A stretch of 64,000 nt of DNA from Povalibacter uvarum (GTDB lineage: Bacteria > Pseudomonadota > Gammaproteobacteria > Steroidobacterales > Steroidobacteraceae), in NCBI RefSeq assembly GCF_014202975.1, contig NZ_JACHHZ010000001.1:496001-560000 (forward strand), given 5' to 3'. The notes under the pieces were generated by a model, which was not told the origin of the DNA, ran no database searches, and was given only the letters and a program-made list of their open reading frames with translations. The position numbers were made by a program, and so were the translations under genes. The stretch's first letter is position 1; each line of letters opens with the position of its first letter. Shown in pieces: positions 6,492-62,332 of this stretch.

Positions 6492-6643
6492 GGAAAAGCT
6501 CTTGAGGCGGATGTCGGATCGATGAGGCATCTTAGCAAGCAATCCCCCCGCGGCCTCAAGCGCCGGGGAGGACGCCCGCAGCGGCCGTGTATAGAATGCA
6601 GGGCTCACGCGACCAGGGTGGTCCGCGTCGTCCCCACCAAGTA

Positions 6644-8074
6644 ATGACGTCTTCGAGTCCTCTAGTTACACGTTTCGCACCGAGCCCCACCGGGCATCTG
6701 CACCTGGGTAACGCCCGCACGGCGCTGCTCAACTTTCTGGCTGCCCGTGGATCGGGTGGTCAGTTCATCCTGCGCGTGGAGGACACGGACGAGGCTCGCA
6801 GCTCGGAAGAGTTCATGCGCGAGCTGTTCCAGGATCTGCGCTGGCTCGGGCTGGAATGGGATGAAGGCCCCGACGTCGGTGGTCCCCACGTGGCCTATCG
6901 TCAGCAGCAGCGCCGCCAGATCTACGAAGACTGGCTGGCGAAGCTCGATGCCGCCGGGTTGACCTATCCATGCTTCTGCACGCCGGCCGAGCTCAACATC
7001 GCCCGCAAGCAGCAGCTCGCCGCGGGCAAGCCGCCGCGCTATGCGGGCACGTGCCGCGTACTGACGGAAGAACAACGTGCCGAACGACTCGTGAGCGGCA
7101 AGCCCGCTGCGTTGCGGTTCCGCGTGCCCAACGGGCAGGTCGTGAGCTTCGTCGACGTGGTTCACGGCGAGCAGCGCTTCAGTACCGATGACATCGGCGA
7201 CTTCATCATCCGCCGCGCCGACGGCAGCACCGCGTTCTTCTTCTCGAATGCCATCGACGACGCTCTCATGGGCATCACGCTCGTGTTGCGTGGCGACGAT
7301 CACCTGACGAACACACCGCGACAGATGCTGATCCTGCAGTCGCTCGAATTGCCCGTGCCGCGATACGCGCACGTTGCATTGTTGCTGGGAATGGATGGTT
7401 CGCCGCTGTCGAAGCGACATGGTGATCTGAGCCTGCGAGACCTGCGCCGTCGGGGATATCTGCCCAGCGCACTGCGCAATCATCTCGTACGGCTCGGGCA
7501 CACGTGCGTTTCCGATGGCTGGCTCGACGATGCAGCGATGCGTGCGGAGTTCGACCTGTCGCGTCTGGGTCGTGCGGCTGCCAAGTTCGATGAAGCGCAG
7601 CTCAAGCACTGGCAGAAGGAAGCGGTGGCACGTCTGAGCACCGATGATTTCCTGGTGTGGATCTCTGCTCAGATGCCCACGGGTGTGGCCACCGCGCAGC
7701 TGGGCAAGTTCGCGGAAGCGATCCGGCACAACATCGAGTTCCCCGGTGATGCAAAGCTGTGGGTGGATGTCGTGTTCGGCGAGCTGCCTGCGTTGCCGGC
7801 GGAAGCATTGACCGTGATTCGGGAGGCGGGTGCCGATTTCTTCGTCACGACTCAGAGCGTGTTCGCGCAGATCGCGGGTGAGTTCCGGCAGATCGCGAAG
7901 GAAATCGGTCAGCGCACCGGGCGAAAGGGCCCGGGGCTATACATGCCACTGCGCGCCGCGCTGACAGGCGTTCTGCATGGACCCGAACTGGGGCCCCTGC
8001 TGGCGTTGCTGTCGTCACAGGAAATCACGAAACGACTGGAACAGGCTCGCCAGATCGCGAGCGGGACACGCTGA
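6644..8074 (+). CDS. gltX: Glutamyl-tRNA synthetase paralogue (GluRS-like, in the glnS position)
   Basis: A 476-residue class I synthetase, charging tRNA with glutamate in the cytosol. It has [14 protein letters not shown] (HIGH-type motif), a zinc-type CFC...C segment near residues 109-136, and LSKRHG (KMSKS-type loop). Start ATG at 6644 was chosen because family homology begins six codons later; an earlier ATG at 6587 would run through a likely promoter (TAGAAT at 6592-6597). A second, more canonical gltX lies at 60932-62332. This copy lies between the cyclophilin/lpxH pair and cysS, where Pseudomonas has glnS. It may preferentially charge tRNA-Gln or tRNA-Glu, which cannot be told from sequence alone. 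It ends 2 bases before cysS. Confidence 0.9.
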
Positions 8075-24517: not shown

Positions 24518-25642
24518 ATGAACTTCATCGATCTCAAGTCCCAGTACGAACGCATTCGCACGCCGATGAACGAGCGCATCCAGAAGGTGCTCGACCACGG
24601 TCAGTACATCATGGGGCCGGAGGTCGTCGAGCTCGAGCAGCGTCTTGCGGAGTTCGTCGGCGCGAAGCACTGCATCGCTGCATCGAGCGGCACCGATACG
24701 CTGCTGATCGCGATGATGGCGATCGGGATCAAGCCGGGCGATGAAGTCATCACCTCGCCCTTCACGTTCATCGCCACGGGGGAAATGATCGCGCTGGCGG
24801 GCGCCAAACCGGTGTTCGTCGACATCGACCGGCGCACGTACAACCTGGATCCGGCCCTCATCGAAGCTGCGATCACGCCGCGCACGAAAGCGATCATGCC
24901 GGTCTCGCTGTATGGACAGTGTGCCGACATGGACGGCATCAACGCAGTGGCCGCGAAGCGCGGTCTGCCGGTGATCGAAGATGCAGCACAGAGCTTCGGT
25001 GCGTACTACAAGGGCAAGGCGTCATGCGCCGTGTCCGAGATCGGATCGACGTCGTTTTTCCCGTCGAAGCCGCTCGGCTGCTATGGCGACGGCGGCGCGC
25101 TGTTCACCAACGATTCCGCGCTCGCGAAGATCATGGCGGAGATCCGCGTCCACGGTCAGGATCGTCGCTATCACCACCCGCGCCTCGGCATCAACGGCCG
25201 TCTCGATACGCTGCAGGCAGCAGTGCTCCTCGGCAAAATGGATATCTTCCCCGATGAAGTGGCGAAGCGCGCCAAGATCGGCGCCCGCTACTCCGAACTG
25301 GTGAATGAGGCGTTCCGCGGCATCGACGATCCGCAGAAGAAGGTGACGACACCGTATCTCGCGCCGGACTGCACGAGCGTGTACGCGCAGTACACGGTCG
25401 AAGTCCCGAATCGCCCGAAGGTGGAGGAGGGGATGAAGGCCCGCGGCGTTCCGACGGCCGTGCACTATCCTGTCCCTCTGCACCTGCAGCCTGTGTTCGC
25501 TGAACTGGGGCAGGGCGAAGGCACATTCCCGATCTCCGAATCCGTCGCGCGCCGCGTGATCAGCCTGCCGATGCACCCGTACCTGACCGAAGATCAGCAG
25601 GTCGCGGTGGTGAAGGCGTTGAAGGAATCGGTTCTGGCTTGA
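24518..25642 (+). CDS. wbpE: DegT/DnrJ/EryC1-family PLP aminotransferase, WbpE-like
   Basis: A 374-residue sugar aminotransferase. The PLP-binding Lys is in FFPSKPLGCYGDGG, and a cofactor Asp is in EDAAQSFGA. The N-terminus MNFIDLKSQYERIR resembles WbpE/WlbC, which converts UDP-3-keto-GlcNAcA to UDP-GlcNAc3NA using glutamate. This fits the WbpA, WbpB and WbpD homologues at 28220-32747; it would complete their pathway although separated from them by dnaQ and nhaB. It lies between rnhA and dnaQ, which are normally adjacent. A TACACT at 24482-24487 could be a minus-10 element. Confidence 0.85.
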   Translation: MNFIDLKSQYERIRTPMNERIQKVLDHGQYIMGPEVVELEQRLAEFVGAKHCIAASSGTDTLLIAMMAIGIKPGDEVITSPFTFIATGEMIALAGAKPVFVDIDRRTYNLDPALIEAAITPRTKAIMPVSLYGQCADMDGINAVAAKRGLPVIEDAAQSFGAYYKGKASCAVSEIGSTSFFPSKPLGCYGDGGALFTNDSALAKIMAEIRVHGQDRRYHHPRLGINGRLDTLQAAVLLGKMDIFPDEVAKRAKIGARYSELVNEAFRGIDDPQKKVTTPYLAPDCTSVYAQYTVEVPNRPKVEEGMKARGVPTAVHYPVPLHLQPVFAELGQGEGTFPISESVARRVISLPMHPYLTEDQQVAVVKALKESVLA

Positions 25643-32165: not shown

Positions 32166-32747
32166 ATGGGCATACAAATTCATCCCACAGCGCTGGTGGA
32201 CGAAGGCGCGGTTGTCGGCGACGGCACCCGCATCTGGCACTGGGTTCACGTGAGTCCCAAGGCGAAGATCGGCAAGGGCTGTTCGCTCGGTCAGAACGTG
32301 TACGTCGGCAATCGCGTCACGATCGGCGATAACGTGAAGATCCAGAACAACGTGTCCGTGTACGACAACGTCACGCTCGAAGACGACGTGTTCTGCGGTC
32401 CGAGCATGGTTTTCACCAACGTCTACAATCCGCGCTCGGCGGTGACGCGCAAGGACGAATATCGCGACACGCTGGTCAAGCGCGGTGCGACGCTCGGCGC
32501 CAACTGCACGATCGTCTGCGGCGTCGTCGTCGGTGAGAATGCCTTCGTGGGCGCCGGCAGTGTCGTGAATCGCAACGTGCCGGCGTTCGCGCTGATGGTG
32601 GGAGTGCCCGCCAAACAGATCGGCTGGATGAGCAGATTCGGGGAACGGCTGGAATTGCCTGTCAAGGGAAGCGGCGAAGCCGTGTGCCCGCATACAGGGG
32701 ATCGCTACGTCCTCGAGAATGGCGTTTGCCGTCTCGTCACCGCGTAA
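32166..32747 (+). CDS. wbpD: Left-handed beta-helix N-acetyltransferase, WbpD/WlbB-like
   Basis: A 193-residue hexapeptide-repeat acyltransferase. Repeated [LIV]-G-x4 turns ([37 protein letters not shown]) give the left-handed beta-helix. WbpD acetylates the 3-amino group of UDP-GlcNAc3NA with acetyl-CoA, completing UDP-GlcNAc3NAcA. Together with the genes at 24518, 28220 and 31102, all four steps are encoded in the window; the WbpI-type 2-epimerase of P. aeruginosa was not seen. Confidence 0.9.
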
Positions 32748-34704: not shown

Positions 34705-37623
34705 ATGGTCAGAAACCGAACAACCGGCCCGCTCTCCGGGCTGGCGCTCTTGCTTGCGGTCTGTGGCTCGACGCTGCTGTCGCCCGTGCACGCTCAAGTG
34801 CCGAGCGCCGAACAGATGGAGATGTTCCAGACTCTGCCGCCCGATCAGCAGCAGGCCATCCTCGAATCCCTGGGAACCAACGGCACGGGAGCCAGCGGCG
34901 CTCAGCGCGGTGTTCGATCGGACCGGCAACTGAGCTTTCCCCGCACGGTCGTGCCCCGTGTCCGTGCTGACGATCAGCTGCTGCAGGACGGCTTGCAGTC
35001 TGAACGCGAGCCGCGGCTCAAGGGAGAGGACACGATCCTGCTCTCCCTGGAGCTCCGCGAGTTCGAGCGTTCGTTCGAACAGGAACGCATCGAGCGTGAA
35101 CGGAAGGACCGGGAGTTCGATCCAAGGGTCGTTTCTCAGCCGGCGATTCCAGGTCGCGTGCCTGGGGCGAATGAGACGGATGCCTCCGCCGGTCAATCAC
35201 CTCGTAAGGCTATCGTGCGGTCGGAATACGATATCCGCAGGCTTGAGGATTTCCGAGACCGCGTCATGCGTCGGAACCCATACAAGCTCGACAAGTGGGG
35301 CATCCTCAACGTCGCGGAACTCGGGCCAGTCCCCTTAGGCGGGTTGACCGTGGAGGAGGCTCGTCAGCGACTCTCAGCCGAGCCGACTCTCAAGGATTTT
35401 CATATCGATGTGCTGCGTTTGCCGCTCCGGCCGGTGGGTGCGGAATCGCTGAAGCCCTTCGGCTATGACCTGTTCGCGGGACTCACTTCGACATTCGCGC
35501 CGGCCACGGACGTTCCGGTTCCTTCGGAGTACGTCGTCGGTCCCGGCGACAACATCGAGGTGCAGCTCACCGGAAACATAAAGGGACGTTACTCCCTGGT
35601 GGTCGGCCGAGACGGTCGCGTGAACTTCCCCGAACTCGGCCCCATTGCAGTGGGCGGCATGCGCTTCGAAGAGGTGCGCGCAATGCTGGAGTCGCGAGTC
35701 CAAGAGCAGATGGTAGGCACGCAAGCGAACGTTGCCATCGGCGAACTCCGGTCTATCCGAGTCTTCGTCCTTGGCGACGTCGAGACGCCGGGCTCCTACA
35801 CCGTGAGCGGCCTTTCCACCATCACGAATGCGCTGTTCGTGAGCGGCGGTGTCAAGAAGATCGGGTCGCTTCGCAATATCGAACTCAAGCGCAATGGTGC
35901 GACGGTGACGCGGCTCGATCTCTACGATCTGCTGCTCAAGGGCGATACGAGAGCGGACGCAAGGTTGCTGCCGGGTGATGTGATCTTCATCCCGCCCGTG
36001 GGCGCCACAGTTGGGCTGTCCGGCGACGTGCGCCGGCCCGCCATCTATGAATTGAGAGGCGAGACAAGCGCTGCTGAACTGGTCGGGCTGGGCGGCGGAT
36101 TGACTCCGCAAGCCGATGCCAAGCTGGCGACGATCGAGCGGGTCAGCGACGACCGCCAGCGCGTGATCATCGACATTGATCTTTCGAAGCAATCCACCAG
36201 GACTGTCGTAATGCGCGGCGGCGATGTGCTGCGGGTGCCTTCGATTCGTCCCGTTCTCGAGGAGTCCGTTGCGCTGGGCGGCTATGTATATCGGCCAGGC
36301 GAGTTCCAGTATCGCGCGGGAATGCGACTCACGGACCTCATCCCGAGTGTTGATGAGCTCAAGCCCAACGCCGATCAACGGTACGTCTTGATTCGCCGCG
36401 AGTTACCGCCCGACCGGAAGATCAGCGTTTTCTCCGCCGATCTCGCCAGAGCAATTGGCGCACCCAACTCAGCAGCCAATTTCGAGCTTGCACCCCGCGA
36501 TCGCGTCTACGTGTTCGATCTCGAGTCGGGTCGCGACCCTGTTGTCGCTCCGCTCATGCGTGAGTTGCGGCTGCAATCGAACCTCGATGAGCCGACGCGC
36601 GAGGTGAGTGTCGCGGGCAGGATCAAGATTCCGGGCACGTATCCTTACGAGCCGGGCATGCGTGTCGCGGACCTGCTGCGCGCTGGCGGCACGCTCGACG
36701 AGTCAGCGTACGGCGGCCAGGCGGAGTTGACCCGCTATTCAGTAACCAACGGTCAGGCGCGCGAAGCAGAGTTGATCGAAATCGATCTGCGTCGTGTCGT
36801 AGAGGGTGATCCGGTCGCAAACATCGCCCTGCAACCCTTCGACTTCCTCGTCATCAAGGAAGTCCCGCTGTGGGGAGCCCAGGAAGAAGTCGAGATCATG
36901 GGCGAAGTGAAATTCCCCGGCCGTTACCCAATCCATCGCGGTGAGACGCTGCGTTCAGTGATGCAGCGAGCGGGTGGCGTGACGGACCTCGCGTTTGTTC
37001 CCGGAAGCGTCTTTACGCGGGTCGAGTTGCGCGAGCGCGAACGCAAGCAGATCGAGACGTTGGCGAATCGCATGCAATCCGACGTTGCGCAAGTCTCCCT
37101 GCAAGCCGCACAGGAAACTGGCAAGGACGCCGGGCAAGCGCTGGCAGTCGGGCAATCCCTGCTGACGGATCTGCGCAATGCCAAGCCCGTAGGCAGACTG
37201 GTGATCGATCTCGAGCAGTCCATGGTTGCGGTGCCGAGTTCGGAGCAGGACATAGTTCTCAAGGACGGCGATAGGCTCCTCGTGCCGCGAATCACCCAGG
37301 AAGTCACCGTCATAGGTGAGGTGCAGAGCACTACGTCGCACCTGTACAACCCGGCAATCGGTCGCGACGAATACGTCCAGATGAGCGGCGGGTTGACCGC
37401 ACGTGCCGATGAGGACCGGATCTATGTCGTCCGGGCCGACGGAAGCGTGGTCGTCAACCAGGGAAATGCATGGTTCAGCGGCGGGCGGGTGGACATCAGG
37501 CCCGGCGACACCATCGTGGTACCGCTCGATACCGAACGCATGAGGCCTTTGCCGTTCTGGACCGCCGTAACGACGATCATCTATAACCTGGCGATCTCAG
37601 TAGCGGCAGTGAACTCCTTCTAG
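34705..37623 (+). CDS. Large SLBB-domain polysaccharide export protein (OPX/Wza family)
   Basis: A 972-residue exported protein, far longer than Wza (about 380). A signal peptide (LALLLAVCGSTLLSPVHAQ) ends near residue 31. The polysaccharide export domain is near residues 275-350 (EYVVGPGDNIEVQLTG, GRDGRVNFPELGPIAVGG). It is followed by several SLBB-type units starting VFVLGDVETPGSYTV, VGLSGDVRRPAIYEL, VALGGYVYRPGEFQY, VSVAGRIKIPGTYPY, VEIMGEVKFPGRYPI and VTVIGEVQSTTSHLY, about six in all. It should form the outer-membrane exit channel. The next gene, 5 bases later, is the Wzz partner. Confidence 0.9.
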   Translation: MVRNRTTGPLSGLALLLAVCGSTLLSPVHAQVPSAEQMEMFQTLPPDQQQAILESLGTNGTGASGAQRGVRSDRQLSFPRTVVPRVRADDQLLQDGLQSEREPRLKGEDTILLSLELREFERSFEQERIERERKDREFDPRVVSQPAIPGRVPGANETDASAGQSPRKAIVRSEYDIRRLEDFRDRVMRRNPYKLDKWGILNVAELGPVPLGGLTVEEARQRLSAEPTLKDFHIDVLRLPLRPVGAESLKPFGYDLFAGLTSTFAPATDVPVPSEYVVGPGDNIEVQLTGNIKGRYSLVVGRDGRVNFPELGPIAVGGMRFEEVRAMLESRVQEQMVGTQANVAIGELRSIRVFVLGDVETPGSYTVSGLSTITNALFVSGGVKKIGSLRNIELKRNGATVTRLDLYDLLLKGDTRADARLLPGDVIFIPPVGATVGLSGDVRRPAIYELRGETSAAELVGLGGGLTPQADAKLATIERVSDDRQRVIIDIDLSKQSTRTVVMRGGDVLRVPSIRPVLEESVALGGYVYRPGEFQYRAGMRLTDLIPSVDELKPNADQRYVLIRRELPPDRKISVFSADLARAIGAPNSAANFELAPRDRVYVFDLESGRDPVVAPLMRELRLQSNLDEPTREVSVAGRIKIPGTYPYEPGMRVADLLRAGGTLDESAYGGQAELTRYSVTNGQAREAELIEIDLRRVVEGDPVANIALQPFDFLVIKEVPLWGAQEEVEIMGEVKFPGRYPIHRGETLRSVMQRAGGVTDLAFVPGSVFTRVELRERERKQIETLANRMQSDVAQVSLQAAQETGKDAGQALAVGQSLLTDLRNAKPVGRLVIDLEQSMVAVPSSEQDIVLKDGDRLLVPRITQEVTVIGEVQSTTSHLYNPAIGRDEYVQMSGGLTARADEDRIYVVRADGSVVVNQGNAWFSGGRVDIRPGDTIVVPLDTERMRPLPFWTAVTTIIYNLAISVAAVNSF

Positions 37624-43076: not shown

Positions 43077-43919
43077 ATGAGCACACGTGAATTACTGAAG
43101 GCGAAGCTGGACGAGATCGGAGGCATATCCAACGAGACTTGGTTCAACGGCCTCTCTGATCGCAAACGAGCGGAGCTGCAGTTCCATGATCGCGATCGCG
43201 ATCGAAAGGCGCTGACTCAGATCGATCAAGACACGTACGAGCGGTTTTACGGCAACAAGAAGTACTACCAGGCCACGGATGACTCGAAACGATACGTCGA
43301 TGACTGGATCAAGACACACGTCCCGGGGAAGGTTTTCCTGGACTATGCTTGTGGCAATGGAGTGAACGCCATTAAGGCCGCCCGCGCCGGAGCCGCGTTG
43401 TCCCTTGGGCTGGACATCAGCAGAGTGTCCGTACAGAACGCCACGGAAGACGCGGCCGCCCAAGGCCTATCGGCCACCGCTCGTTTCATACAGGCGGATG
43501 CGGAAGACACCAAGCTTCCCGACAGCTCGATCGACGTGATCATTTGCAGCGGCATGCTGCATCACCTCGATCTCTCCTACGCATTCCCCGAGTTGCGGCG
43601 CATTCTGGCACCGGGCGGCAAGATTCTTGCGATCGAGGCGCTCGACTACAATCCGATGATCAAGCTGTATCGCAAGCTCACGCCGGATATGCGCACCGAA
43701 TGGGAGAAGGCACACATTCTCAGCCTGAAGGATCTCAGATTCGCCAGGCGCTTCTTTGATGTGCAGCAAACCCGCTACTGGCACATCACAAGCATCGTTG
43801 CCCCGCACGTGCCGTTCATGCTGCCGGCATTGAATCTGGTGGACAAGATTCTGACGCGGATACCGGGCGTGCAACTGATGTCCTGGATCTTCACATTCGA
43901 GTTGCGTTCTACAAAGTGA
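43077..43919 (+). CDS. Class I SAM-dependent methyltransferase
   Basis: A 280-residue protein. Motif I is FLDYACGNGVNAIKAA near residue 83, the acidic residue is in LGLDISRVSV, and motif IV is DVIICSGMLHHLDL. The C-terminus has a hydrophobic stretch (HVPFMLPALNLVDKIL) as in several glycan-cluster methyltransferases. It probably acts on a sugar nucleotide or lipid-linked glycan. Its stop overlaps the GTG of the next glycosyltransferase (GTGA). Confidence 0.84.
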   Translation: MSTRELLKAKLDEIGGISNETWFNGLSDRKRAELQFHDRDRDRKALTQIDQDTYERFYGNKKYYQATDDSKRYVDDWIKTHVPGKVFLDYACGNGVNAIKAARAGAALSLGLDISRVSVQNATEDAAAQGLSATARFIQADAEDTKLPDSSIDVIICSGMLHHLDLSYAFPELRRILAPGGKILAIEALDYNPMIKLYRKLTPDMRTEWEKAHILSLKDLRFARRFFDVQQTRYWHITSIVAPHVPFMLPALNLVDKILTRIPGVQLMSWIFTFELRSTK

Positions 43920-45208
43920 GCGGCGCGACCACCGGCCCGTCGAGCAAGCCTCGGGGAAGACTTCGGATATGGCTCATCACCGTCGGTGAGCCGCTGCCAC
44001 TGGGTGATTCGTCGGCGAGGCTGTGGCGAACGGGACTGTTGGCGCAGACCCTGGTGGACAGGCAGCATGAGGTGACATGGTGGACGTCCGCCGTCGATCA
44101 CTTCAACAAACGATTCCACGTCGACAGGTCGGATCGCGTACGAGTGAATGCTCTGTTGGAGTTGCAGTTCCTCTATGGGGAGCTGTACACGCGCAACATT
44201 TCCGCGGCTCGCTGGCGCAACCATCGTCAGATTGCCGCCGAATTCACGCGGCTCGCTGCAGTCGAAGAAAAGCCCGACGTGATCCTGTGCTCGTATCCCA
44301 CGATCGAACTCAGTGCCGCTGCGGTGCTGTTCGGCGAACAGCACGGAATTCCGGTACTCCTCGATATACGCGACCTGTGGCCCGACGAAATGGCAGCTCG
44401 GCTCCCCCGATTCCTGCGCTCTCTTGCTCCGCTCCTGTTGTGGCCCATGTACCGCGACGCGCGACTTGCGTTGAAGCGTGCCACGGGAATGGTAGCAATC
44501 TCGCGGCGCTACCTGGCTTGGGGACTGGAGCACGCCCAGCGTGCTGGCAACGACGCCGATGCTGTGTTTACGCACGGGTATCCCTCCCAGCAACTGTCCA
44601 ACCAGGCTGATGTGCAGAACGTACTGACGGAACTCGGGTTGGACGCCTCGCAACGAGTCTTCTGGTTCGTGGGTACGTTCGTCGGAAGCATCGATCTCGC
44701 CACGGTGATCGAGGCGGCGAGGATCCTCGACGACCAGAACGTGGTTTTCGTGCTGACAGGCTCCGGCGAGAAGGATGCGGAGTGGCGGGCGCAGGCTCAC
44801 GGATTGCGCAATGTCCGTTTCACCGGGTGGGTAGACAAGGACAGGCTGCAGGCGCTCGCGTCGATCGCTTGGGTTGGCCTCGCTGCGTACAAGGCCGGTG
44901 CGCTGATGAGTTTGACCAACAAGCTGTTCGAGTACATGGCCCATGGCCTGCCTATCCTTGTCAGTCTGCCGGGAGAGGCGCGGGCCGTTGTCGAATCTGA
45001 ACGGTGCGGCATGTTCTACGAACCGGGATCCGCGACCGCCCTTGCGACCGCTGTCAGGGCCATGTGTGCCGATTCGTCGTTGAGGGACGCGATGGCCGCC
45101 AACGCCAGGCGAGCATTCGAGGCCAGGTATTCAGCGACCGCTGTTTACGACGGACTAGCGTCGCATCTGGAGGTAGTCGCAGCAGATGAGGCAGGGCGGC
45201 GGCGTTGA
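43916..45208 (+). CDS. Glycosyltransferase family 4, WbuB-like
   Basis: A 430-residue GT-B enzyme with a GTG start. N-terminal SARLWRTGLLAQTLVDRQHE and LLDIRDLWPDEMA, then the donor domain with FVGTFVGSIDLATVIEAAR and LTNKLFEYMAHGLPILV, are typical of WbuB-type transferases that add amino-deoxy sugars; the exact sugar is unknown. It overlaps the upstream methyltransferase by 4 bases and ends before a 484-base gap. Confidence 0.86.
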   Translation: MSGATTGPSSKPRGRLRIWLITVGEPLPLGDSSARLWRTGLLAQTLVDRQHEVTWWTSAVDHFNKRFHVDRSDRVRVNALLELQFLYGELYTRNISAARWRNHRQIAAEFTRLAAVEEKPDVILCSYPTIELSAAAVLFGEQHGIPVLLDIRDLWPDEMAARLPRFLRSLAPLLLWPMYRDARLALKRATGMVAISRRYLAWGLEHAQRAGNDADAVFTHGYPSQQLSNQADVQNVLTELGLDASQRVFWFVGTFVGSIDLATVIEAARILDDQNVVFVLTGSGEKDAEWRAQAHGLRNVRFTGWVDKDRLQALASIAWVGLAAYKAGALMSLTNKLFEYMAHGLPILVSLPGEARAVVESERCGMFYEPGSATALATAVRAMCADSSLRDAMAANARRAFEARYSATAVYDGLASHLEVVAADEAGRRR

Positions 45209-45692: not shown

Positions 45693-46466
45693 ATGACTGA
45701 CTTTGCCGAAGTCACCGAACTCGCTGGCGATGATGTGAGCGGCGAGCAGGTGCAACGTGTTTGCACCCGCTACGCCTGGGCTTTGCCTTTCTGCCGGAGC
45801 AAGGATGTGGTCGAAGTCGCGTGCGGCACCGGACCCGGACTCGGGTTGCTCCGTGGTGTCGCCAAGTCACTGGTCGCCGGAGACATCAGCGAGACCATTC
45901 TCGGTCGCGCCCGGGCACACTACCGCGATGCGATAGATCTGCGCACGCTGGACGCCCAGGCATTGCCGTTCGAGGATGCCAGCGTCGATGTCGTCATCAT
46001 TTTCGAAGCACTGTACTACCTGCCGCGCCCGGAGCTGTTCTTCGCGGAATGCCGGCGCGTCCTTCGGCCGGGCGGCCACGTGCTCATCTCGAATGCCAAC
46101 AAGGATCTGAGCGACTTCAATCCCAGCCCGCATAGTCACGTCTATCACGGGGTTGTAGAGTTGCGCGAAGCGTTCGCGCAGCATGGCTTCTCGGCCTCGT
46201 TCTTCGGCGACGTGCCCATGCAGTCGGTCTCATGGCGGCAGAAGCTCCTGAGGCCAGTGAAGCGTGCCGTGGTCGCCCTGAATCTCATGCCGAAAAGCAT
46301 GGCGGGCAAGAAGCTCCTGAAGAAACTGGTCTTCGGTTCGATGAGCCCGTTCCCCGCGGAGATCACCCCCGCAATGTTGCCGACTGCCTTGACGCTGGCA
46401 CCGCTGGATCCGGCGCGGCCCGATCAGGTGCACAAGGTTATTCTGTGCGCAGCTCGGAAATCATGA
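45693..46466 (+). CDS. Class I SAM-dependent methyltransferase (UbiE-like fold)
   Basis: A 257-residue protein. Motif I is VVEVACGTGPGLGLL near residue 33, then AGDISETILGRARAHY, the motif DAQALPFEDASVDVVIIFE, and LRPGGHVLISNANK. It is the third methyltransferase of the locus. It follows the 484-base gap and precedes an aminotransferase by 94 bases. Target unknown; an O- or N-methyl or C-methyl sugar is likely. Confidence 0.84.
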   Translation: MTDFAEVTELAGDDVSGEQVQRVCTRYAWALPFCRSKDVVEVACGTGPGLGLLRGVAKSLVAGDISETILGRARAHYRDAIDLRTLDAQALPFEDASVDVVIIFEALYYLPRPELFFAECRRVLRPGGHVLISNANKDLSDFNPSPHSHVYHGVVELREAFAQHGFSASFFGDVPMQSVSWRQKLLRPVKRAVVALNLMPKSMAGKKLLKKLVFGSMSPFPAEITPAMLPTALTLAPLDPARPDQVHKVILCAARKS

Positions 46467-46560
46467 CTGTCCGCCTGCTGATTGCGCGAGCCGCTGAGTG
46501 CGGCGTGATCGACGGCAACCCTCAGTTCGTCAATTGACTCAATTAACCCAGAGAACCGCG

Positions 46561-47667
46561 ATGCGAAACATTCCCTTCTTTCCTTACTCTCAGCTGTTTT
46601 CGGCGCAGGAGAGCGAGCTGACGTCGGTCATGATCGACGTGTGCCGGCGGGGTGCGTACATCCTGCAGAAAGATTGCCGTGAGTTCGAAGCATCGCTCGC
46701 GCAGTTCATGGGCGTGAAGCACGCGTTTGGTCTCGCGAACGGGACCGACGCGATCATCATCGGGTTGAAGGCTGTCGGCGTCGGTGCCGGCGACGAAGTG
46801 ATCCTGCCTTCGCACACTTACATTGCGACCGCGGCGGCCGTGCACATGGTGGGCGCAACTCCCGTGCTCGCCGAGTGCGGCGCCGATCACATGCTCGACG
46901 CGGCGGACGTCGCCAAGCGCATTACTCCGCGCACGAAAGCCATCATGCCCGTTCAGGTCAATGGACGGACGTGCGACATGGATGCACTGCAAGCCGTCGC
47001 CGACAAGCACGGAGTCATGATCGTCGAGGATGCCGCGCAGGGCCTGGGATCCAAGTTCAAAGGTCGCAGTGCCGGAACGTTCGGCAAGTTCGGAACGATC
47101 AGCTTCTACCCCGCGAAGCTGCTCGGCTGCTTCGGCGACGGCGGTGCCATCGTGACGAACGATGATGCCGTGGCAAAGCAGATCGCGTTGCTGCGCGATC
47201 ACGGCCGCAACGAAGAAGGCCGCGTAGTCGCGTGGGGTTACAACTCCCGTCTGGACAACCTCCAGGCCGCGATCCTCAACTTCAAGCTGAAGACGTTCCC
47301 GGCGGATGTCGAGAGACGCCGCGCAGTGGCTGCGCGGTATCAGCGTGGCCTGGGCGATCTCAAGCAGCTCACGCTGCCGCCGGCGCCGGATGCTGATTCG
47401 CGTCACTTCGACGTCTATCAGAATTACGAGCTCGAGGCCGATCGCCGCGATGAGCTGCGCGCTCATCTCGAGAAGAATGGCGTCCGTACCATCATCCAGT
47501 GGGCGGGAACGCCAGTGCATCAGTTCCACGATCTCGGATTCGACGTCCAGTTGCCGCGCACCGATGCGTTCTTCAAGCGCTGCTTCATGTTGCCGATGAA
47601 CGCCGCCATCACCGACGACGAAGTCGACTACATCGTTCAGCACATCCGCGCGTTCTACGGGCTCTGA
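46561..47667 (+). CDS. DegT/DnrJ/EryC1-family sugar aminotransferase
   Basis: A 368-residue PLP enzyme. The Lys is in FYPAKLLGCFGDGG, the cofactor Asp in VEDAAQGLGS, and FGLANGTDAI is the phosphate-binding loop. It differs clearly from the WbpE-like enzyme at 24518. It could aminate the 4-keto sugar made by the dehydratase at 50634. ATG 46561 (MRNIPFFPYSQ) is the family-type start. The E1-alpha-like gene starts 2 bases after its stop, so the three genes 46561-49702 are one unit. Confidence 0.88.
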   Translation: MRNIPFFPYSQLFSAQESELTSVMIDVCRRGAYILQKDCREFEASLAQFMGVKHAFGLANGTDAIIIGLKAVGVGAGDEVILPSHTYIATAAAVHMVGATPVLAECGADHMLDAADVAKRITPRTKAIMPVQVNGRTCDMDALQAVADKHGVMIVEDAAQGLGSKFKGRSAGTFGKFGTISFYPAKLLGCFGDGGAIVTNDDAVAKQIALLRDHGRNEEGRVVAWGYNSRLDNLQAAILNFKLKTFPADVERRRAVAARYQRGLGDLKQLTLPPAPDADSRHFDVYQNYELEADRRDELRAHLEKNGVRTIIQWAGTPVHQFHDLGFDVQLPRTDAFFKRCFMLPMNAAITDDEVDYIVQHIRAFYGL

Positions 47668-47669
47668 TC

Positions 47670-48710
47670 GTGTCGCGGACCGAACTGGGCGCGCTCGCTG
47701 ATGCGGCGCAGTTTCAAGGACCGATCGACATCGCCGCGTGCGATGTCGATGAGCTGAAGGCCGCACTGCGATCGATGCTGAAGATCCGTTTCGTTGAGCA
47801 GCAGCTCGCGGCTCAACGACGCGACGGGCACATCGGCGGGCCGGTGCACCTTGGCGTGGGGCAGGAGGCGGTGGCGGTCGGCGTATCGGCGCACCTGCGG
47901 CGGACTGACCGCGTGTTCGGCGGCCATCGATCACACTCGCACCTGCTTGCACTCGGGTCCGATGTTCGGCGTTTGTTCGCGGAGATTCTTGGCAAGGACA
48001 CCGGGCTTTCCCGTGGCATGGGAGGCTCGATGCACCTGTGGGACAAGCCGAACGGCTTCTACGGATCGACCCCGATCGTGGCCGGCACCATCTCGCTCGC
48101 GGTGGGCGCAGGGCTGGCCGCGGCGATGCAGAAGACCGGGGATGTCGCTGTCGCGTACTTCGGCGACGGAGCGGTCGAGGAAGGCGTCGTCCACGAGTGC
48201 CTGAACCTGGCGCAGATTCTCAAGATCCCCGTGCTGTTCGTGGTGGAGAACAACCTGTTCTCCAGTCACATGCACATCTCGCTGCGTCAACCCAAGGACG
48301 CAACGGTGCGCTTCGCGCACGCTCACGACATGGCTGCTGAGCTCGTCGATGGCAACGACATTGTCGAGGTGAAGCGCGCCGCCGGCCGTTTGATCGAGCG
48401 CGCACGGGCGGGAGAAGGTCCGGGTTTCCTCGAGGCGGTTACGCAGCGCTGGTATGGCCACGTCGACTGGCGCGAAGACATCGATGTGGGAGTCAATCGG
48501 TCGACCGCGGACCTCGATCAGTGGCGCAGGCGCGATCCGGTGGCGCGACTGGAATCCGCTTTGCTGAGCGCGGGCCACATGACCCGGGCGGAAGGCGAAG
48601 AAATCAGAAGGTCTCTGCGCGAAGAGATCGAATCGGCGTGGGCAACGGCAGCGACGGATCCGTACCCGGCGCCGGAAGCACTGCTCGCCAGGGTTTACAT
48701 CGACAAATGA
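47670..48710 (+). CDS. Thiamine-diphosphate enzyme, dehydrogenase E1 alpha-like subunit
   Basis: A 346-residue protein with a GTG start. The ThDP/Mg motif begins GDGAVEEG and ends in NN of VVENN, about 30 residues later. HRSHSHLLALG and RGMGGSMHL match the alpha chain of 2-oxoacid dehydrogenases. Such E1 enzymes decarboxylate a 2-oxoacid and pass the two-carbon or acyl unit on. No E2 or E3 gene is near. The setting in a sugar locus suggests transfer to a sugar, as proposed for AviB1/AviB2 in avilamycin. It overlaps the beta gene by 4 bases. Confidence 0.88.
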   Translation: MSRTELGALADAAQFQGPIDIAACDVDELKAALRSMLKIRFVEQQLAAQRRDGHIGGPVHLGVGQEAVAVGVSAHLRRTDRVFGGHRSHSHLLALGSDVRRLFAEILGKDTGLSRGMGGSMHLWDKPNGFYGSTPIVAGTISLAVGAGLAAAMQKTGDVAVAYFGDGAVEEGVVHECLNLAQILKIPVLFVVENNLFSSHMHISLRQPKDATVRFAHAHDMAAELVDGNDIVEVKRAAGRLIERARAGEGPGFLEAVTQRWYGHVDWREDIDVGVNRSTADLDQWRRRDPVARLESALLSAGHMTRAEGEEIRRSLREEIESAWATAATDPYPAPEALLARVYIDK

Positions 48711-49702
48711 ACTATCTCTCCGAATCCGCGGCGGGCGTGTCGTATGGAGTCGCCATCCGCCATGCCTTCGAATATCTGCTGTCCCGTTATCCGGAAGTGT
48801 TCGTCATCGGGCAGGGGCTCTGGAGCCCCTGGTACGTTGGCAACTCGATGACGGAGCTCGACAAGAAGTTCGGCAAGCACCGCGTCATCGACACGCCGGT
48901 TTCCGAACTCGCCTGCACCGGCCTGGCAGTCGGTGCCTCGCTCGCGGGCACTCGTCCGATCGTTGTTCATCCGCGCATGGACTTCATGCTGTACGCGACT
49001 GACGCCATCGTGAATCAGGCGGCGAAGTGGTCGCACATGCTCGGTGCACAGGATGCGCCTGCGGTGACCATCCGCGCGATCATCAACCGCGGAGGCGAGC
49101 AGGGTGCGCAGCACTCGCAAGCACTTCACTCATGGTTCGCTCATGTGCCTGGACTGCGGGTGGTGATGCCCTCCACGGCGAGCGATGCACGAGACCTGTT
49201 GATCGCCGCGGCTCTGTGCAACGACCCGGTGATGTACATCGACGATCGCTGGCTCTATGAGCGAACCGAAGATCTCGCCCCGGTGAAAGAGCTGGATCTT
49301 CGACGCGAGGGTCCACGGGTACGGCGCCAGGGAAAAGACATCACGCTGGTCGGCAGCAGTTACTCGAGCTATCTGTGCGAGCAGGCAGCGGACGTGCTCG
49401 CTGCCCAGGGCATCGAGGCGGAAGTCATAGACCTTCGCGTGGTCAGCCCACTGCGACCGGAACTGATCATCGAGTCGGTGCGCAAGACAGGGCGGCTGTG
49501 TGTCGTCGACGGCGGCTGGCGAACGGCCGGCCTGGCGGGTGAGGTGATCGCGAGCGTGTGCGAGGCCGTCGACTCGATGCGTGCCCGTCCGGTCCGTGTC
49601 ACGTTGCCCGATGCGCCGGCACCTACCAGCCGTCCTCTCGAAAAGCTTTACTATCCGACCAAAGAAACCGTCGTGCAGGCGGCGCTTGGAATACTGCGCT
49701 GA
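48707..49702 (+). CDS. Thiamine-diphosphate enzyme, dehydrogenase E1 beta-like subunit
   Basis: A 331-residue transketolase-type protein. The catalytic Glu that activates ThDP is Glu67 in DTPVSELACTG. QHSQALHSWFAHVPGL and VVMPSTASDA are hallmark beta-chain segments, and the C-terminal transketolase domain (about 200-325) is complete. ATG 48707 overlaps the alpha stop. With the alpha subunit it should form an alpha2-beta2 enzyme. Substrate unknown; branched sugar formation or acylation of an amino sugar are my leading guesses. Confidence 0.88.
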   Translation: MNYLSESAAGVSYGVAIRHAFEYLLSRYPEVFVIGQGLWSPWYVGNSMTELDKKFGKHRVIDTPVSELACTGLAVGASLAGTRPIVVHPRMDFMLYATDAIVNQAAKWSHMLGAQDAPAVTIRAIINRGGEQGAQHSQALHSWFAHVPGLRVVMPSTASDARDLLIAAALCNDPVMYIDDRWLYERTEDLAPVKELDLRREGPRVRRQGKDITLVGSSYSSYLCEQAADVLAAQGIEAEVIDLRVVSPLRPELIIESVRKTGRLCVVDGGWRTAGLAGEVIASVCEAVDSMRARPVRVTLPDAPAPTSRPLEKLYYPTKETVVQAALGILR

Positions 49703-49726: not shown

Positions 49727-50455
49727 ATGAAGCGACTCTCAGACATCCTGATCTCAGCACTCGGCCTCATGGTGGCCGCACCGATCCTGCTCCCCGTGAT
49801 GTTCCTGATCTGGTGGCAGGACAAGCATTCGCCGTTCTACATCGCCCCTCGCGTGGGGAGAGGGGAGAAGCCGTTCAGGATGATCAAGCTGCGCTCGATG
49901 ATCATCAACGCGGACAAGTCGGGTGTGGACTCGACTGCCGCCAACGATCGTCGCATCACGCGCGTGGGCCAGTTCGTCCGGCAGTACAAGCTCGACGAAG
50001 TGGTCCAGCTTTGGAATGTGTTCAAAGGGGACATGTCGCTGGTGGGCCCGCGCCCCAACGTCGAGCGCGAAACGCGGATGTACACGCCCCAGGAAAAGCG
50101 CTTGCTCACCGTGCGCCCGGGGATCACCGACTACGCTTCGATTGTTTTCTCCGACGAGGGGGAGATCCTGAAAGGCAAGGCCGACCCGGACATTGCTTAC
50201 AACCAGCTCATCCGGCCCTACAAGGGGTATCTGGGCTTGTTCTATCTGGAGCACTCCGGCGTTTTCCTGGACCTCAAGCTCATCATGCTGACGGTCCTGG
50301 CGGTCGCGTCGCGCTCGGCTGCCTTGAGGGCAGTTGTGAAGGACATGAAGAAACGTGGTGCTCCCGACGAGCTCCTGCGCGTAGCGGCCCGAGAAGCCGA
50401 ACTGGTGCCGGCACCGCCCCCGGGTGCGGCAACCGTTGTTACCGAACGATACTAA
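49727..50455 (+). CDS. PglC-type initiating sugar-phosphate transferase
   Basis: A 242-residue monotopic phosphoglycosyl transferase. A re-entrant membrane helix lies at residues about 4-26 (LSDILISALGLMVAAPILLP). The core motif YKLDEVVQLWNVFKGDMSLV with GPRP contains the catalytic Asp-Glu pair. It lacks the large N-terminal membrane domain of WbaP/WcaJ. It transfers a sugar-1-phosphate to undecaprenyl phosphate, starting the repeat unit. Beside a PglF/WbpM-like dehydratase, its donor may be a UDP-2,4-diamino-trideoxy or 6-deoxy HexNAc sugar. Confidence 0.93.
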   Translation: MKRLSDILISALGLMVAAPILLPVMFLIWWQDKHSPFYIAPRVGRGEKPFRMIKLRSMIINADKSGVDSTAANDRRITRVGQFVRQYKLDEVVQLWNVFKGDMSLVGPRPNVERETRMYTPQEKRLLTVRPGITDYASIVFSDEGEILKGKADPDIAYNQLIRPYKGYLGLFYLEHSGVFLDLKLIMLTVLAVASRSAALRAVVKDMKKRGAPDELLRVAAREAELVPAPPPGAATVVTERY

Positions 50456-50633: not shown

Positions 50634-52640
50634 GTGACGGAATCGATGCCTAAATGGATTGAGCGGTTCGCCAACGGGCTGGCTCAGCTGCCTCGCTCGC
50701 AGAAGCGGCTCCTGATGCTATTGGCGGATCTGTTGGGCATTCCGTTCGTCCTCTGGTTTGCGGTATCGCTGCGCCTGGGCACGTACGTTCACGATCTGAG
50801 CGGAGAAGCCTGGTTCTACGGAGCGGCTCTGGTCACGAGCATCATCGTGTTCGTGAGGATGGGACTCTATCGCGCCGTCATCCGCTACCTTGGGCCCAAG
50901 GCGATCCTGGCGGTGTTCTCCGGGGTGACTTTGTCAGTTGCGCTGCTCTGCGCGTTGGCGCTGGCGTGGCCTGAGAAGACGATTCCTGTTTCCACGCTCC
51001 CCATTTACTGGGCATTCGCGCTGATCTACGTAGGCGGCACGCGGTTCATGGTCCGCGGGCTTCTCAATTTCCGATGGTCCGGCGGCACGCAACGCGTGGC
51101 GATCTACGGGGCGGGTGCAGCCGGCGTGCAGCTCGCTACCGGCCTGGCTCGAAGCGGCAGATACCACCCCGTGGCATTCATCGACGACAACGTCGGCTTG
51201 CACGGGAGCACGGTCAACGGGCTCGAGGTGTTTCCGCTCGCCGAACTTCCCGGCCTCGTAGCCGATGACGGCGTCGCCGCGGTCTTCCTGGCATTGCCCT
51301 CCCAGACCCGGCGACGCAGACAGGAGATTCTCAAGGCCATCGAGCCCCTGTCCCTCCTGGTGCAGACCGTTCCCGACTACGCGGACATTCTTGCGGGTCA
51401 CGCCAAGGTCGAAGATGTCCGGGACGTCGACGCAGGCGACTTGCTGGGACGCGACGCCGTGCCGCCGAACGAGCGACTTCTCGACGCGTGTATCCATGGA
51501 AAGGTCGTCATGGTCACGGGTGCGGGCGGCTCCATCGGATCCGAGCTGTGCCGGCAGATACTCCGGTTGCGGCCGAGTCAGGTGCTGCTGTTCGAGATGT
51601 CGGAGCTCGCGCTCTACAACATCGAACGAGAGCTGAAGTACCTCGCGGGCACCGAGCACATCTCGACTGCGATCGTCGGCCTGCTCGGAGATGCCCATCA
51701 CAAGAATCGGGTACGCGAAATTCTCCAGGCCTATGGCGTGCAGACCATCTATCACGCCGCGGCCTACAAGCATGTGCCCATCGTCGAGCAGAACATCGTC
51801 GAGGGCATCTACAACAACATCTTCAGCACGTGGCATGCGGCGGAAGCCGCGCTCGAGTGTCGCGTGGAAACGTTCGTGCTCATCTCCACTGACAAGGCGG
51901 TCAATCCGACGAATGTCATGGGAGCGACGAAGCGCTTCGCCGAGATCGTGCTGCAGGGGCTGCACAACCGCGGTTCGCAAACGCGGTTTTGCATGGTGCG
52001 ATTCGGCAATGTGCTCGAATCATCCGGATCGGTAGTGCCCTTGTTTCGCGAGCAGGTGAAGCGGGGCGGACCGGTCACCGTGACCCACAAGGACGTGATC
52101 CGCTACTTCATGACCATCCCCGAGGCTGCGCAGCTGGTGCTGCAGGCAGGCTCGATGGGCCGGGGCGGCGACGTATTCGTGCTCGACATGGGCAAGCCGG
52201 TGAGGATCGCGGATCTCGCCAAGCGCATGATCAGCCTGATGGGCCTGACGGTTCGCGACGAAGAGAATCCCGATGGCGACATCGAGATCATCTATACGGG
52301 ATTGCGTCCTGCCGAAAAGCTGTTCGAAGAGCTGCTGATCGGCACCAACGTTACCGGAACCGAACACCCGATGATCATGCGGGCCATAGAGCATTCGCTG
52401 CCCTGGCCGCAGGTCCAGCAGGTGCTGGATGAGCTCTCGGTTGCGTTGAACCGCTTTGATTGCGAGAGGGCGCGCCAGCTGCTGATGCAGACGGTCGATG
52501 AGTACCGTCCCTCGCAGGACCTGCAGGACCTCGTCTGGACTCGCAAGGCGGAAGTCGCGAATGGCGAGACCACGAACGTCACGAACCTGCAAAGCAGGAG
52601 AGCGCGGCTCGCGGCGCCGAGCCCACCGCACACAATCTGA
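50634..52640 (+). CDS. Membrane nucleotide-sugar 4,6-dehydratase (WbpM/PglF/CapD family)
   Basis: A 668-residue protein, GTG start with a strong GGGAGGG site. The N-terminal third has about four membrane spans (from LLADLLGIPFVLWFAVSL). A CoA-binding-like Rossmann fold follows (VAIYGAGAAGVQLATGLAR). The catalytic SDR domain has VTGAGGSIGSELCRQIL and STDKAVNPTNVMGATKR, in which Met replaces the usual catalytic Tyr, as in UDP-GlcNAc 4,6-dehydratases of this family. It would make the 4-keto-6-deoxy sugar for the DegT enzyme at 46561. Confidence 0.93.
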   Translation: MTESMPKWIERFANGLAQLPRSQKRLLMLLADLLGIPFVLWFAVSLRLGTYVHDLSGEAWFYGAALVTSIIVFVRMGLYRAVIRYLGPKAILAVFSGVTLSVALLCALALAWPEKTIPVSTLPIYWAFALIYVGGTRFMVRGLLNFRWSGGTQRVAIYGAGAAGVQLATGLARSGRYHPVAFIDDNVGLHGSTVNGLEVFPLAELPGLVADDGVAAVFLALPSQTRRRRQEILKAIEPLSLLVQTVPDYADILAGHAKVEDVRDVDAGDLLGRDAVPPNERLLDACIHGKVVMVTGAGGSIGSELCRQILRLRPSQVLLFEMSELALYNIERELKYLAGTEHISTAIVGLLGDAHHKNRVREILQAYGVQTIYHAAAYKHVPIVEQNIVEGIYNNIFSTWHAAEAALECRVETFVLISTDKAVNPTNVMGATKRFAEIVLQGLHNRGSQTRFCMVRFGNVLESSGSVVPLFREQVKRGGPVTVTHKDVIRYFMTIPEAAQLVLQAGSMGRGGDVFVLDMGKPVRIADLAKRMISLMGLTVRDEENPDGDIEIIYTGLRPAEKLFEELLIGTNVTGTEHPMIMRAIEHSLPWPQVQQVLDELSVALNRFDCERARQLLMQTVDEYRPSQDLQDLVWTRKAEVANGETTNVTNLQSRRARLAAPSPPHTI

Positions 52641-60931: not shown

Positions 60932-62332
60932 ATGACCATCCGAACCCGTTTCGCACCGAGTCCCACCGGCATGCTGCACATCGGCGGCGTGAGGACGGCG
61001 TTGTTTTCGTGGCTGTACGCGAAGGGTCGCCAGGGCGACTTCATCCTGCGCGTCGAAGATACGGACCGCGAGCGATCCACCGACGAGGCGACGCAGGTCA
61101 TTCTCGACGGGATGGAATGGCTCGGCCTCGCGGCCGACGAAGGCCCGTTCTATCAGACGCGCCGGATGGACCGCTATCGCGAAGTCCTCGCGCAGTTCGT
61201 GCGCGACGGACACGCATATCACTGCTACTGCACGAAAGAAGAGCTCGCAGAGATGCGCAGCAAGCAGGAAGCAGCCAAACAGAAGCCGCGCTACGACGGC
61301 ACGTGCAGGAATCGCACGCAGCCGCGGGAAGGTGTCGATCCCGTCATCCGATTCAAGAATCCGCTCGACGGATCTGTCGTCGTCGAGGACGTCATTCACG
61401 GCAACGTCGAGTTTCAGAATACCGAGCTCGATGACCTCATCATCGCGCGTTCAGACGGCACGCCGACGTACAACTTCTGCGTCGTCGTGGACGACATGGA
61501 CATGAAGATCACGCACGTGATCCGTGGCGATGATCATCTCAACAACACACCCCGTCAGATCAACATGCTCAAGGCACTGGGCGCCGTGCTTCCGGTGTAT
61601 GGGCACGTGCCCATGATCCTGGGCGCTGACGGAGCCAAGCTGTCGAAGCGGCACGGCGCTGTGAGCGTGTTGCAGTATCGGGAAGAGGGCTTCCTGCCGG
61701 TCGCTCTGCTCAACTACCTGGTGCGTCTCGGCTGGTCGCATGGCGATCAGGAAGTGTTCTCGCTCGAAGAAATGCAGGCGCTGTTCGACATCAAGGACGT
61801 CAACAAGTCGGCCTCGGCGTTCAATCCCGACAAGCTGTTGTGGCTCAATCAGCAGCACATCATGCGTGCGACGCCGGAATCGCTCGTACCGCACCTGAAG
61901 TTCCAGCTCGCCGCGCTGGGCATCGATGTGATCGATGACGCGAAGCTGGCTGCCGTGGCGAAGGCTCAGCAGGAGCGCGCCAAGACGCTGAAGGAGATGG
62001 CGCAGAACAGCACGTTCTTCTTCGTCGAGATCAAGACGTATGACGAGAAGGCGGCAAAGAAGAATCTGACCGCGGAAAGCGCGCCCGTGCTTCGTTCGGT
62101 TCACGCGAAGCTCTCTGCGCTGAGTGCGTGGACGGCCGCTGCGATTCACGATGCCGTGAACGAGGTCGCGACAACGTCCAGCATCGGACTCGGCAAAGTG
62201 GCGCAGCCCATCCGCGTCGCTGTCTCGGGCACGTCCGTTTCGCCGCCCATCGATGTCACGCTCGAGGTGCTGGGTCGTGAGACGACGCTCAGCCGCATCG
62301 ATCGTGCAATCGCAGTTGCGGGTGCAGCCTGA
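60932..62332 (+). CDS. gltX: Glutamyl-tRNA synthetase (canonical copy)
   Basis: A 466-residue class I synthetase. FAPSPTGMLHIGGVRTALF holds the HIGH-type motif, YHCYCTKEEL with a later Cys is the zinc-binding region, and KLSKRHGAVSV is the KMSKS-type loop. It resembles beta/gamma-proteobacterial GltX more than the copy at 6644 does; there, the anticodon-binding region differs strongly. tRNA-Glu and tRNA-Ala lie directly downstream, as in Pseudomonas. It should supply Glu-tRNA-Glu. Confidence 0.96.
   Translation: MTIRTRFAPSPTGMLHIGGVRTALFSWLYAKGRQGDFILRVEDTDRERSTDEATQVILDGMEWLGLAADEGPFYQTRRMDRYREVLAQFVRDGHAYHCYCTKEELAEMRSKQEAAKQKPRYDGTCRNRTQPREGVDPVIRFKNPLDGSVVVEDVIHGNVEFQNTELDDLIIARSDGTPTYNFCVVVDDMDMKITHVIRGDDHLNNTPRQINMLKALGAVLPVYGHVPMILGADGAKLSKRHGAVSVLQYREEGFLPVALLNYLVRLGWSHGDQEVFSLEEMQALFDIKDVNKSASAFNPDKLLWLNQQHIMRATPESLVPHLKFQLAALGIDVIDDAKLAAVAKAQQERAKTLKEMAQNSTFFFVEIKTYDEKAAKKNLTAESAPVLRSVHAKLSALSAWTAAAIHDAVNEVATTSSIGLGKVAQPIRVAVSGTSVSPPIDVTLEVLGRETTLSRIDRAIAVAGAA

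Follow-up and report, generated by a model that had tools for sequence, protein, structure and literature searches.

Sugar branching by enzymes of the E1 type is already known. The alphaKADH2 pairs, e.g., AviB1/AviB2 of avilamycin, Pau11/Pau12 (the proposed branching pair of paulomycin) and KbDH, are E1 pairs located in deoxysugar gene sets (PMC12247030, PMC4425429), and the ketone of the new branch is then reduced or transaminated: Pau7, an aldo-keto reductase (AKR), reduces the 4-C-acetyl branch of paulomycin E (PMC4753412), the branch of kibdelomycin is transaminated, and KbDH-alpha/beta was described to couple pyruvate to cyclic ketones in vitro (PMC12247030). On a surface polysaccharide, YerE of the yersiniose pathway places a two-carbon branch on a 4-keto deoxysugar, and this branch ketone is later reduced as well (PMC4753412, PMC12247030). 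A 2025 review assigns E1-type branching enzymes mainly to antibiotics and YerE-like ones to lipopolysaccharide (PMC12247030). The 64-kb stretch of Povalibacter uvarum DNA analyzed here (contig NZ_JACHHZ010000001.1, positions 496,001 to 560,000; referred to as the window) carries an E1-like alpha/beta gene pair among sugar genes, which probably works like an alphaKADH2 branching enzyme. Unlike the antibiotic pairs, to which we liken it by gene content, it belongs to a surface-polymer cassette with a polyprenyl-phosphate sugar-1-phosphate transferase (PGT) and a PglF-type dehydratase that occurs in many phyla, and its acceptor is probably a UDP-N-acetylhexosamine derivative. The predicted product resembles that of YerE, but YerE is a single thiamine pyrophosphate-dependent flavoprotein of the decarboxylase superfamily; a YerE-like enzyme was rejected, since E1_dh, Transket_pyr and Transketolase_C domains on two chains belong to another superfamily.

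We consider it probable that the pair is a stand-alone thiamine diphosphate (ThDP)-dependent carboligase and no part of a 2-oxoacid dehydrogenase complex, which would branch a PglF-derived sugar ahead of its amination by a DegT enzyme and its loading by a PGT. The two genes overlap by four bases (ATGA, alpha stop and beta start), and the ThDP and catalytic motifs are intact in both chains, with GDG at residues 165–167 and NN at 194–195 of alpha, and Glu67 and QHSQ (135–138) in beta. Pfam assigns alpha to E1_dh (8.9e-59) and beta to Transket_pyr (2e-27) and Transketolase_C (1.3e-29), and NCBIfam likewise labels the two proteins as E1 chains. An earlier note, made from the bare sequence, had described a complete, overlapping pair with these motifs, two bases behind a DegT aminotransferase and 24 bases ahead of a sugar transferase; coordinates, domains and motifs agree with this description, as do the neighboring gene ends (DegT end at 47667, transferase start at 49727). 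With the E1s of pyruvate, acetoin and branched-chain complexes the pair shares the family, the ThDP motifs and the catalytic Glu and His. It differs from them in having no E2, in its place on the other side of the E1 tree, and in the beta residues Q36, G37, W42, Y43, M48, R90, N127, D163, D179 and P203, which distinguish its subfamily from E2-type E1s. All scores to the pyruvate dehydrogenase (PDH) E1 models stay far below the cut-offs (alpha, 285.8 vs. 393.85; beta, 239 vs. 321 and 240.3 vs. 454).

The host genome (6.3 Mb, 98% complete) holds four E2 genes (2-oxoacid_dh, PF00198), all of them outside the window, and a tblastn search of the window with five E2s and one E3 gave no match at 1e-3. 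The E2 at C1:267793 is preceded by a 910-codon AceE (1434 bits, model cut-off 860), those at C1:1023644 and C6:495837 each by their own E1 alpha/beta pair, and the one at C1:1273661 by a long frame matching both E1_dh and Transket_pyr, which we read as 2-oxoglutarate E1, with the open reading frame (ORF) on the other side of this E2 read as dihydrolipoyl dehydrogenase. As each E2 gene thus has its own E1 adjacent, no host E2 is left that would need one. In the available DNA of 80 related loci (see below), no E2 match was obtained at 1e-5, with six of six control loci positive, and E3 was represented by a lone weak match in L069 (23% identity, about 2.7 kb from the E1 pair).

From the concatenated alpha and beta chains of the subfamily, E2-partnered E1s and other orphan pairs, we built a maximum-likelihood tree (96 rows; unrooted, quick method), with AviB1/B2, Pau11/12 and KbDH not among the rows and the internal stops in L101 alpha and L125 beta treated as X. 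The eight E2-partnered rows fall on one side of a branch with a support of 100, and the orphan E1s, i.e., the subfamily, four pairs from sugar-type loci (L134, L136, L140, L038), a second pair of L034 and two pairs from Streptomyces plasmids, on the other. Beta residue 90 is Arg in all 81 subfamily rows and all seven other orphan rows, vs. Phe in seven of the eight E2-type rows. The earlier note had reported no E2 or E3 in the window, had proposed a genome-wide search for an E2 partner, and had named clustering with PDH or acetoin E1s, together with an E2 lacking its own E1, as the outcome that would speak against a sugar role; instead, the pair lies in a separate clade, and every E2 of the genome is already served.

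Relatives were collected by scanning a contig collection with two beta motifs, which gave 157 stretches with 137 relatives, of which the best 80 loci were kept. Full-length alpha and beta stand side by side in every one of these 80, a conserved adjacency that is far beyond chance. By record title (many of the records are metagenome bins), the loci are spread over 13 phyla, with 44 in Pseudomonadota, eight in Cyanobacteriota, seven in Gemmatimonadota and at most three in any other; three have no phylum in the title, and no actinomycetes are among the 80. Genome sets gave eight relatives of the tight subfamily besides the host's own genome (alpha 48–62% identity, E below 1e-95): two among 98 related genomes (G086 and G011, the latter grouped in the same genus as the host), four among 369 genomes of the class (G280, G429, G136, G113) and two among 398 genomes of the phylum-level set (G629, G621). 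Close relatives are sporadic, yet they span at least 13 phyla. A phage collection contributed 15 matching records, all below 36% identity, and among plasmid records judged by name (the 40 best of 149 in one search, the 30 best of 35 in another) no branched-sugar antibiotic cluster was recognized.

The recurring cassette consists of the E1 pair, a DegT aminotransferase or an AKR, a PGT and a glycosyltransferase, often with a PglF-type 4,6-dehydratase, the gene that also gives the pair its keto-deoxysugar setting in the window. By tblastn, a PGT was found anywhere in 71 of the 80 loci, a DegT of any kind in 66, the glycosyltransferase type of the window in 53 and the PglF type in 42. A homologue of the glycosyltransferase was seen in 37 of 57 DegT-only and 10 of 15 AKR-only loci, as defined below. 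An environmental strain of Peristeroidobacter agariperforans (L052) also carries this cassette. A literature search, which reached few subscription papers, found no account of such an E1/DegT-or-AKR/PGT cassette.

DegT and AKR largely exclude each other in the cassette. Within 4 kb of the E1 pair, 57 loci have only the cassette DegT, 15 only the AKR, four both and four neither (Fisher, 1.8e-9); 27 of the 80 have less than 4 kb of flanking DNA on at least one side, and for the 53 loci flanked fully the counts are 39, 11, two and one. These counts rest on a 44% identity limit between the cassette DegT and other DegT proteins, set after seeing the data, and on an AKR query taken from L074, itself one of the 80 loci. 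The AKR of L095 is an Aldo_ket_red protein. Both enzymes keep close to the E1 pair: DegT lies within 300 bp in 48 of the 57 DegT-only loci and on the same strand in 50, and the AKR shares the strand of the pair in all 15 AKR-only loci, eight of which have it no more than 300 bp away. When all 13 families present in at least six loci within 6 kb were compared with DegT, AKR was by far the most opposed (p = 1.7e-8), the methyltransferase type MT45 was positively associated (0.008), and PglF (0.44) and the glycosyltransferase (0.19) were neutral; E1 and DegT are themselves counted among the 13, as is an artefact from a reverse frame, the neighbor catalog omits genes below 100 codons, and the greedy ORF caller at times retained a reverse-frame ORF.

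The exchange of the two enzymes has happened repeatedly. The DegT/AKR state needs 13 changes on the E1 tree, and the AKR label needs 14 changes, at least 10 of them forced by the starred branches, vs. a shuffled mean of 14.3, so that it is unclustered. In independent pairs over supported branches, a comparison that, like the other tree tests, corrects only in part for the kinship among the mutually related 80 loci, DegT and AKR differ in opposite directions in 7.6 of 12 on average and in the same direction in 0.0 (median p = 0.008). For the 67 rows with a PGT, the E1 tree requires 11 DegT/AKR changes (shuffled mean 12.2) and the PGT tree three (shuffled mean 12.1), and in independent pairs AKR and the main AKR-type PGT clade change in the same way in 5.0 of nine, oppositely in none, with no difference in 4.0. 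The median identity to the window PGT is 61% in 53 DegT-only loci vs. 43% in 14 AKR-only loci, and the E1 identities are alike in both groups (p = 0.90 and 0.58). An example is provided by the AKR locus L095 of Polaromonas eurypsychrophila and the DegT locus L083 of a gammaproteobacterial bin, with 83% identity in E1 alpha, 86% in E1 beta and 67% in PglF; DegT/AKR and methyltransferase differ between them, and the PGTs are just 44% identical. These swap, tree and identity data suggest a common early E1 step, followed by an enzyme that is swapped and a PGT that seems to recognize the outcome; in short, the PGT type tends to follow the DegT/AKR state. The methyltransferases co-vary as well: with types set by best match, MT45 or MT31 occurs in 39 of 57 DegT-only loci and in none of the 15 AKR-only loci, and a repeat without masking (>100 bits) gave MT45 in 24 and MT31 in 13 of 57 vs. 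0/15 and 0/15. MT43 shows the opposite trend (8 of 15 AKR loci vs. 10 of 57 DegT loci).

The gene content suggests the following route, whose donor, acceptor, branch position, stereochemistry, step order and product we infer. The PglF-type dehydratase, two genes downstream of the pair, would convert UDP-N-acetylglucosamine (UDP-GlcNAc) to UDP-2-acetamido-2,6-dideoxy-4-hexulose, a product proposed because its best solved relative is WlaL (263 bits), which we take to be PglF of C. jejuni. The alpha/beta pair would then decarboxylate pyruvate, the presumed donor, and move the two-carbon unit to the 4-hexulose ketone, giving a 4-C-acetyl sugar with a tertiary alcohol; the lone ring ketone would be consumed by this addition and a new ketone would arise on the branch. 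That this branch ketone is reduced or transaminated is suggested by the exchange of AKR and DegT: DegT may transaminate it to a 1-aminoethyl branch, and in the sister cassettes the AKR should yield a 1-hydroxyethyl branch instead. The methyltransferase would probably methylate the 1-aminoethyl branch or a neighboring group, and the PGT would finally put the finished sugar on undecaprenyl phosphate (Und-P), where it would initiate the repeat unit of a surface polymer. The predicted backbone has a counterpart in shewanellose of Shewanella putrefaciens A6, a 2-acetamido-2,6-dideoxy-4-C-branched galactose with a different, longer branch, by which C4-branched 2-acetamido-2,6-dideoxyhexoses are documented in O-polysaccharides (PMC4052302).

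Comparative evidence lends good support to the branched-sugar reading. The earlier note had left a choice between a branched and an acyl-modified sugar. The former is supported by the E2s with their own E1s, the tree and the DegT/AKR cassette, and the latter gained no support: replacement of DegT by AKR would be expected for a new ketone and not for an amide, and among the 13 recurrent families the lone acyltransferase recognized is WbpD-like and occurs in 6 of the 80 loci, with no search made with acyltransferase or PglD models. We also discarded the idea that the E1 pair acylates an amine, with no E2 adjacent and the exchange pointing to a ketone. More tentatively, and perhaps slightly less likely to be right than wrong, the cassettes could define a class of surface glycans in at least 13 phyla, including Prochlorococcus, SAR86 and SAR11, which start with a C-branched, usually 4-C-(1-aminoethyl), often methylated 2-acetamido-2,6-dideoxyhexose, made by a stand-alone E1 with swapped DegT/methyltransferase or AKR modules, each with its own PGT.

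Several observations weigh against the proposed route. The four loci with both DegT and AKR and the four with neither (three of the latter on short flanks) depart from strict exclusion. The PGT co-switching judged by independent pairs alone gives a median p of 0.0625, below significance, and of the 13 AKR rows eight fall into the main AKR-type PGT clade and five do not; the E1 tree itself has 28 open branches and some long rows. AKR loci often have a methyltransferase as well, namely MT43 in 8 of 15. Of the 40 loci with 9 kb or more to either side, only 26 showed a dehydratase (PglF or RfbG), so that the remaining genomes may encode it at a distant site or rely on a different acceptor. CDP-glucose genes (RfbF/RfbG) occur in two of the 80 loci, L097 and L130, both without a PglF match; their position beside the E1 pair suggests acceptor switching, and the acceptor may accordingly vary. 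Among solved chains, the DegT protein is nearest to 2oga (261 bits), presumably DesV, WbpE (231) and QdtB (227), all of which we take to be C3-ketone aminotransferases, ahead of ArnB (151), which we take to act at C4. On these grounds the same carboligase might set its branch at C3, the position known from aldgamycin and kibdelomycin, or act on a different keto-sugar, with DegT or AKR working on the side chain or on a remaining ring ketone. C3 branches are described for this enzyme class (PMC12247030), but no 3,4-ketoisomerase or 2,3-dehydratase was recognized by eye in examples of the 40 largest neighbor families, where no model search was made, and we regard this alternative as unlikely.

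The remaining alternatives appear less probable still. The bacillosamine pathway consists of PglF, PglE, PglD and PglC, and the window resembles it in its PglF-type dehydratase, DegT enzyme and Bac_transf PGT. DegT might act in the manner of PglE and aminate the PglF product at C4, with the E1 pair only acylating or serving a separate role; no PglD-type acetyltransferase was recognized in the recurrent families (no search with a PglD model was made), so that the acylator of the amine could be another enzyme. An E1 pair is foreign to that pathway, however, an amine at C4 would leave the carboligase without a ketone, and we know of no route by which an E1 without E2 gives acyl-CoA. DegT, moreover, alternates with a ketoreductase, with the E1 pair and PglF staying in place, and is not nearest to the C4 aminotransferases (ArnB as above; PseC model 201.9, cut-off 423.5); its resemblance to the presumed C3-ketone enzymes over ArnB would speak against a PglE role. 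We consider this explanation improbable. Even less probable is that the pair serves a conventional pyruvate, acetoin or branched-chain complex and shares an E2 encoded elsewhere. The E1 homology is clear, and PDH E1 chains are the nearest solved relatives, but this candidate was rejected in view of the E1 next to each of the four E2s and the separate clade, in line with the low PDH score of alpha (286 vs. 394) and the lack of E2 matches in the 80 loci. A split transketolase-like enzyme, finally, could take a two-carbon ketol unit from a sugar phosphate and leave a hydroxyacetyl instead of an acetyl branch. Ketone-branching transketolases have been proposed (PMC12247030), and both chains give weak matches to transketolase and 1-deoxyxylulose-5-phosphate (DXP) synthase models; PDH E1 models score higher than these, with a margin of about 260 bits in alpha and about 190 bits in beta, and we hold this variant to be very improbable.

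Table 1. Genes of the E1 locus and its surroundings, numbered from the first base of the window.
Feature	Position	Strand	Remarks
SLBB/Poly_export protein	34705–37623		upstream in the window
Second S-adenosylmethionine (SAM) methyltransferase, type MT43	43077–43919	+	looser cassette member, commoner in AKR loci
Family-4-like glycosyltransferase	43916–45208	+	cassette member
SAM methyltransferase, type MT45	45693–46466	+	would modify the new amine or a site close to it
DegT/DnrJ/EryC1 aminotransferase	46561–47667	+	proposed amination of the side-chain ketone; ATG at 46561 chosen here, ORF opens at 46498
E1 alpha-like subunit	47670–48710	+	GTG start, 346 aa; ThDP pyrophosphate/Mg site (GDG...NN)
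E1 beta-like subunit	48707–49702	+	ATG start, 331 aa; catalytic Glu67, QHSQ, subfamily signature GQGLWSPWYVGNSMT, Arg90
Bac_transf PGT	49727–50455	+	proposed loading of the branched sugar on Und-P
PglF-type UDP-GlcNAc 4,6-dehydratase	50634–52640	+	motif STDKAVNPTNVMGATK, Met in motif; proposed source of the 4-keto acceptor

Further features accompany the locus and its relatives. The pyridoxal phosphate-binding Lys of DegT presumably lies in SFYPAK, a position we take from the family. A second DegT aminotransferase (24518–25642, 36% identity to the cassette DegT) and a stretch with a WbpD-like acetyltransferase (32181–32669, 54%) perhaps represent a distinct pathway to a 2,3-diamino sugar in the upstream part of the window. 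The window also contains two glutamate–tRNA ligase genes (6587–8074 and 60932–62332; 386 and 587 bits, gltX cut-off 290). In L097 (3059–7666), RfbF/RfbG are placed between alpha and beta. Of the loci with both DegT and AKR, L087 and L091 have two PGTs as well, and L075 and L076 (Pelagibacteraceae; L076 on a short contig) have one, with AKR and DegT flanking one E1 pair, which maybe reflects two products or two steps.

A second kind of orphan-looking E1 pair is found at L134:7952–12161, L136:5977–10265, L140:4995–8225, L034:14920–17015 and L038:597–2757, with alpha up to about 44% identical to that of the window and some of the pairs beside DegT genes, kinases or a SIS protein. No E2 was in view in L134, L136, L140 and L034 (L038 was outside the E2 check), and their acceptor may be a different, possibly heptose-like sugar. 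Two Streptomyces plasmids (L133:12980–15026, L132:14956–16955) carry a related E1 pair amid polyketide-type genes, a setting taken from the annotation (ketosynthases, acyl carrier protein) for L133 and judged by eye for L132.

What the comparison adds to the known E1-type sugar branching is a putative branching enzyme of this type that belongs to a surface-glycan cassette of wide distribution, in which an amine route and an alcohol route can replace each other. For shewanellose, we know of no biosynthetic genes. The E1-type pairs described here form a recurrent module of apparent surface polysaccharide loci, also in ocean picoplankton, and the combination of one E1 type with a downstream aminotransferase in some loci and a downstream reductase in others represents a clean natural experiment. 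In addition, the cassette family offers many new candidate biocatalysts for tertiary alcohols. For the organisms themselves, the cassettes predict so far unknown branched amino sugars on the cell surface, which would be a contact site for phages and grazers.

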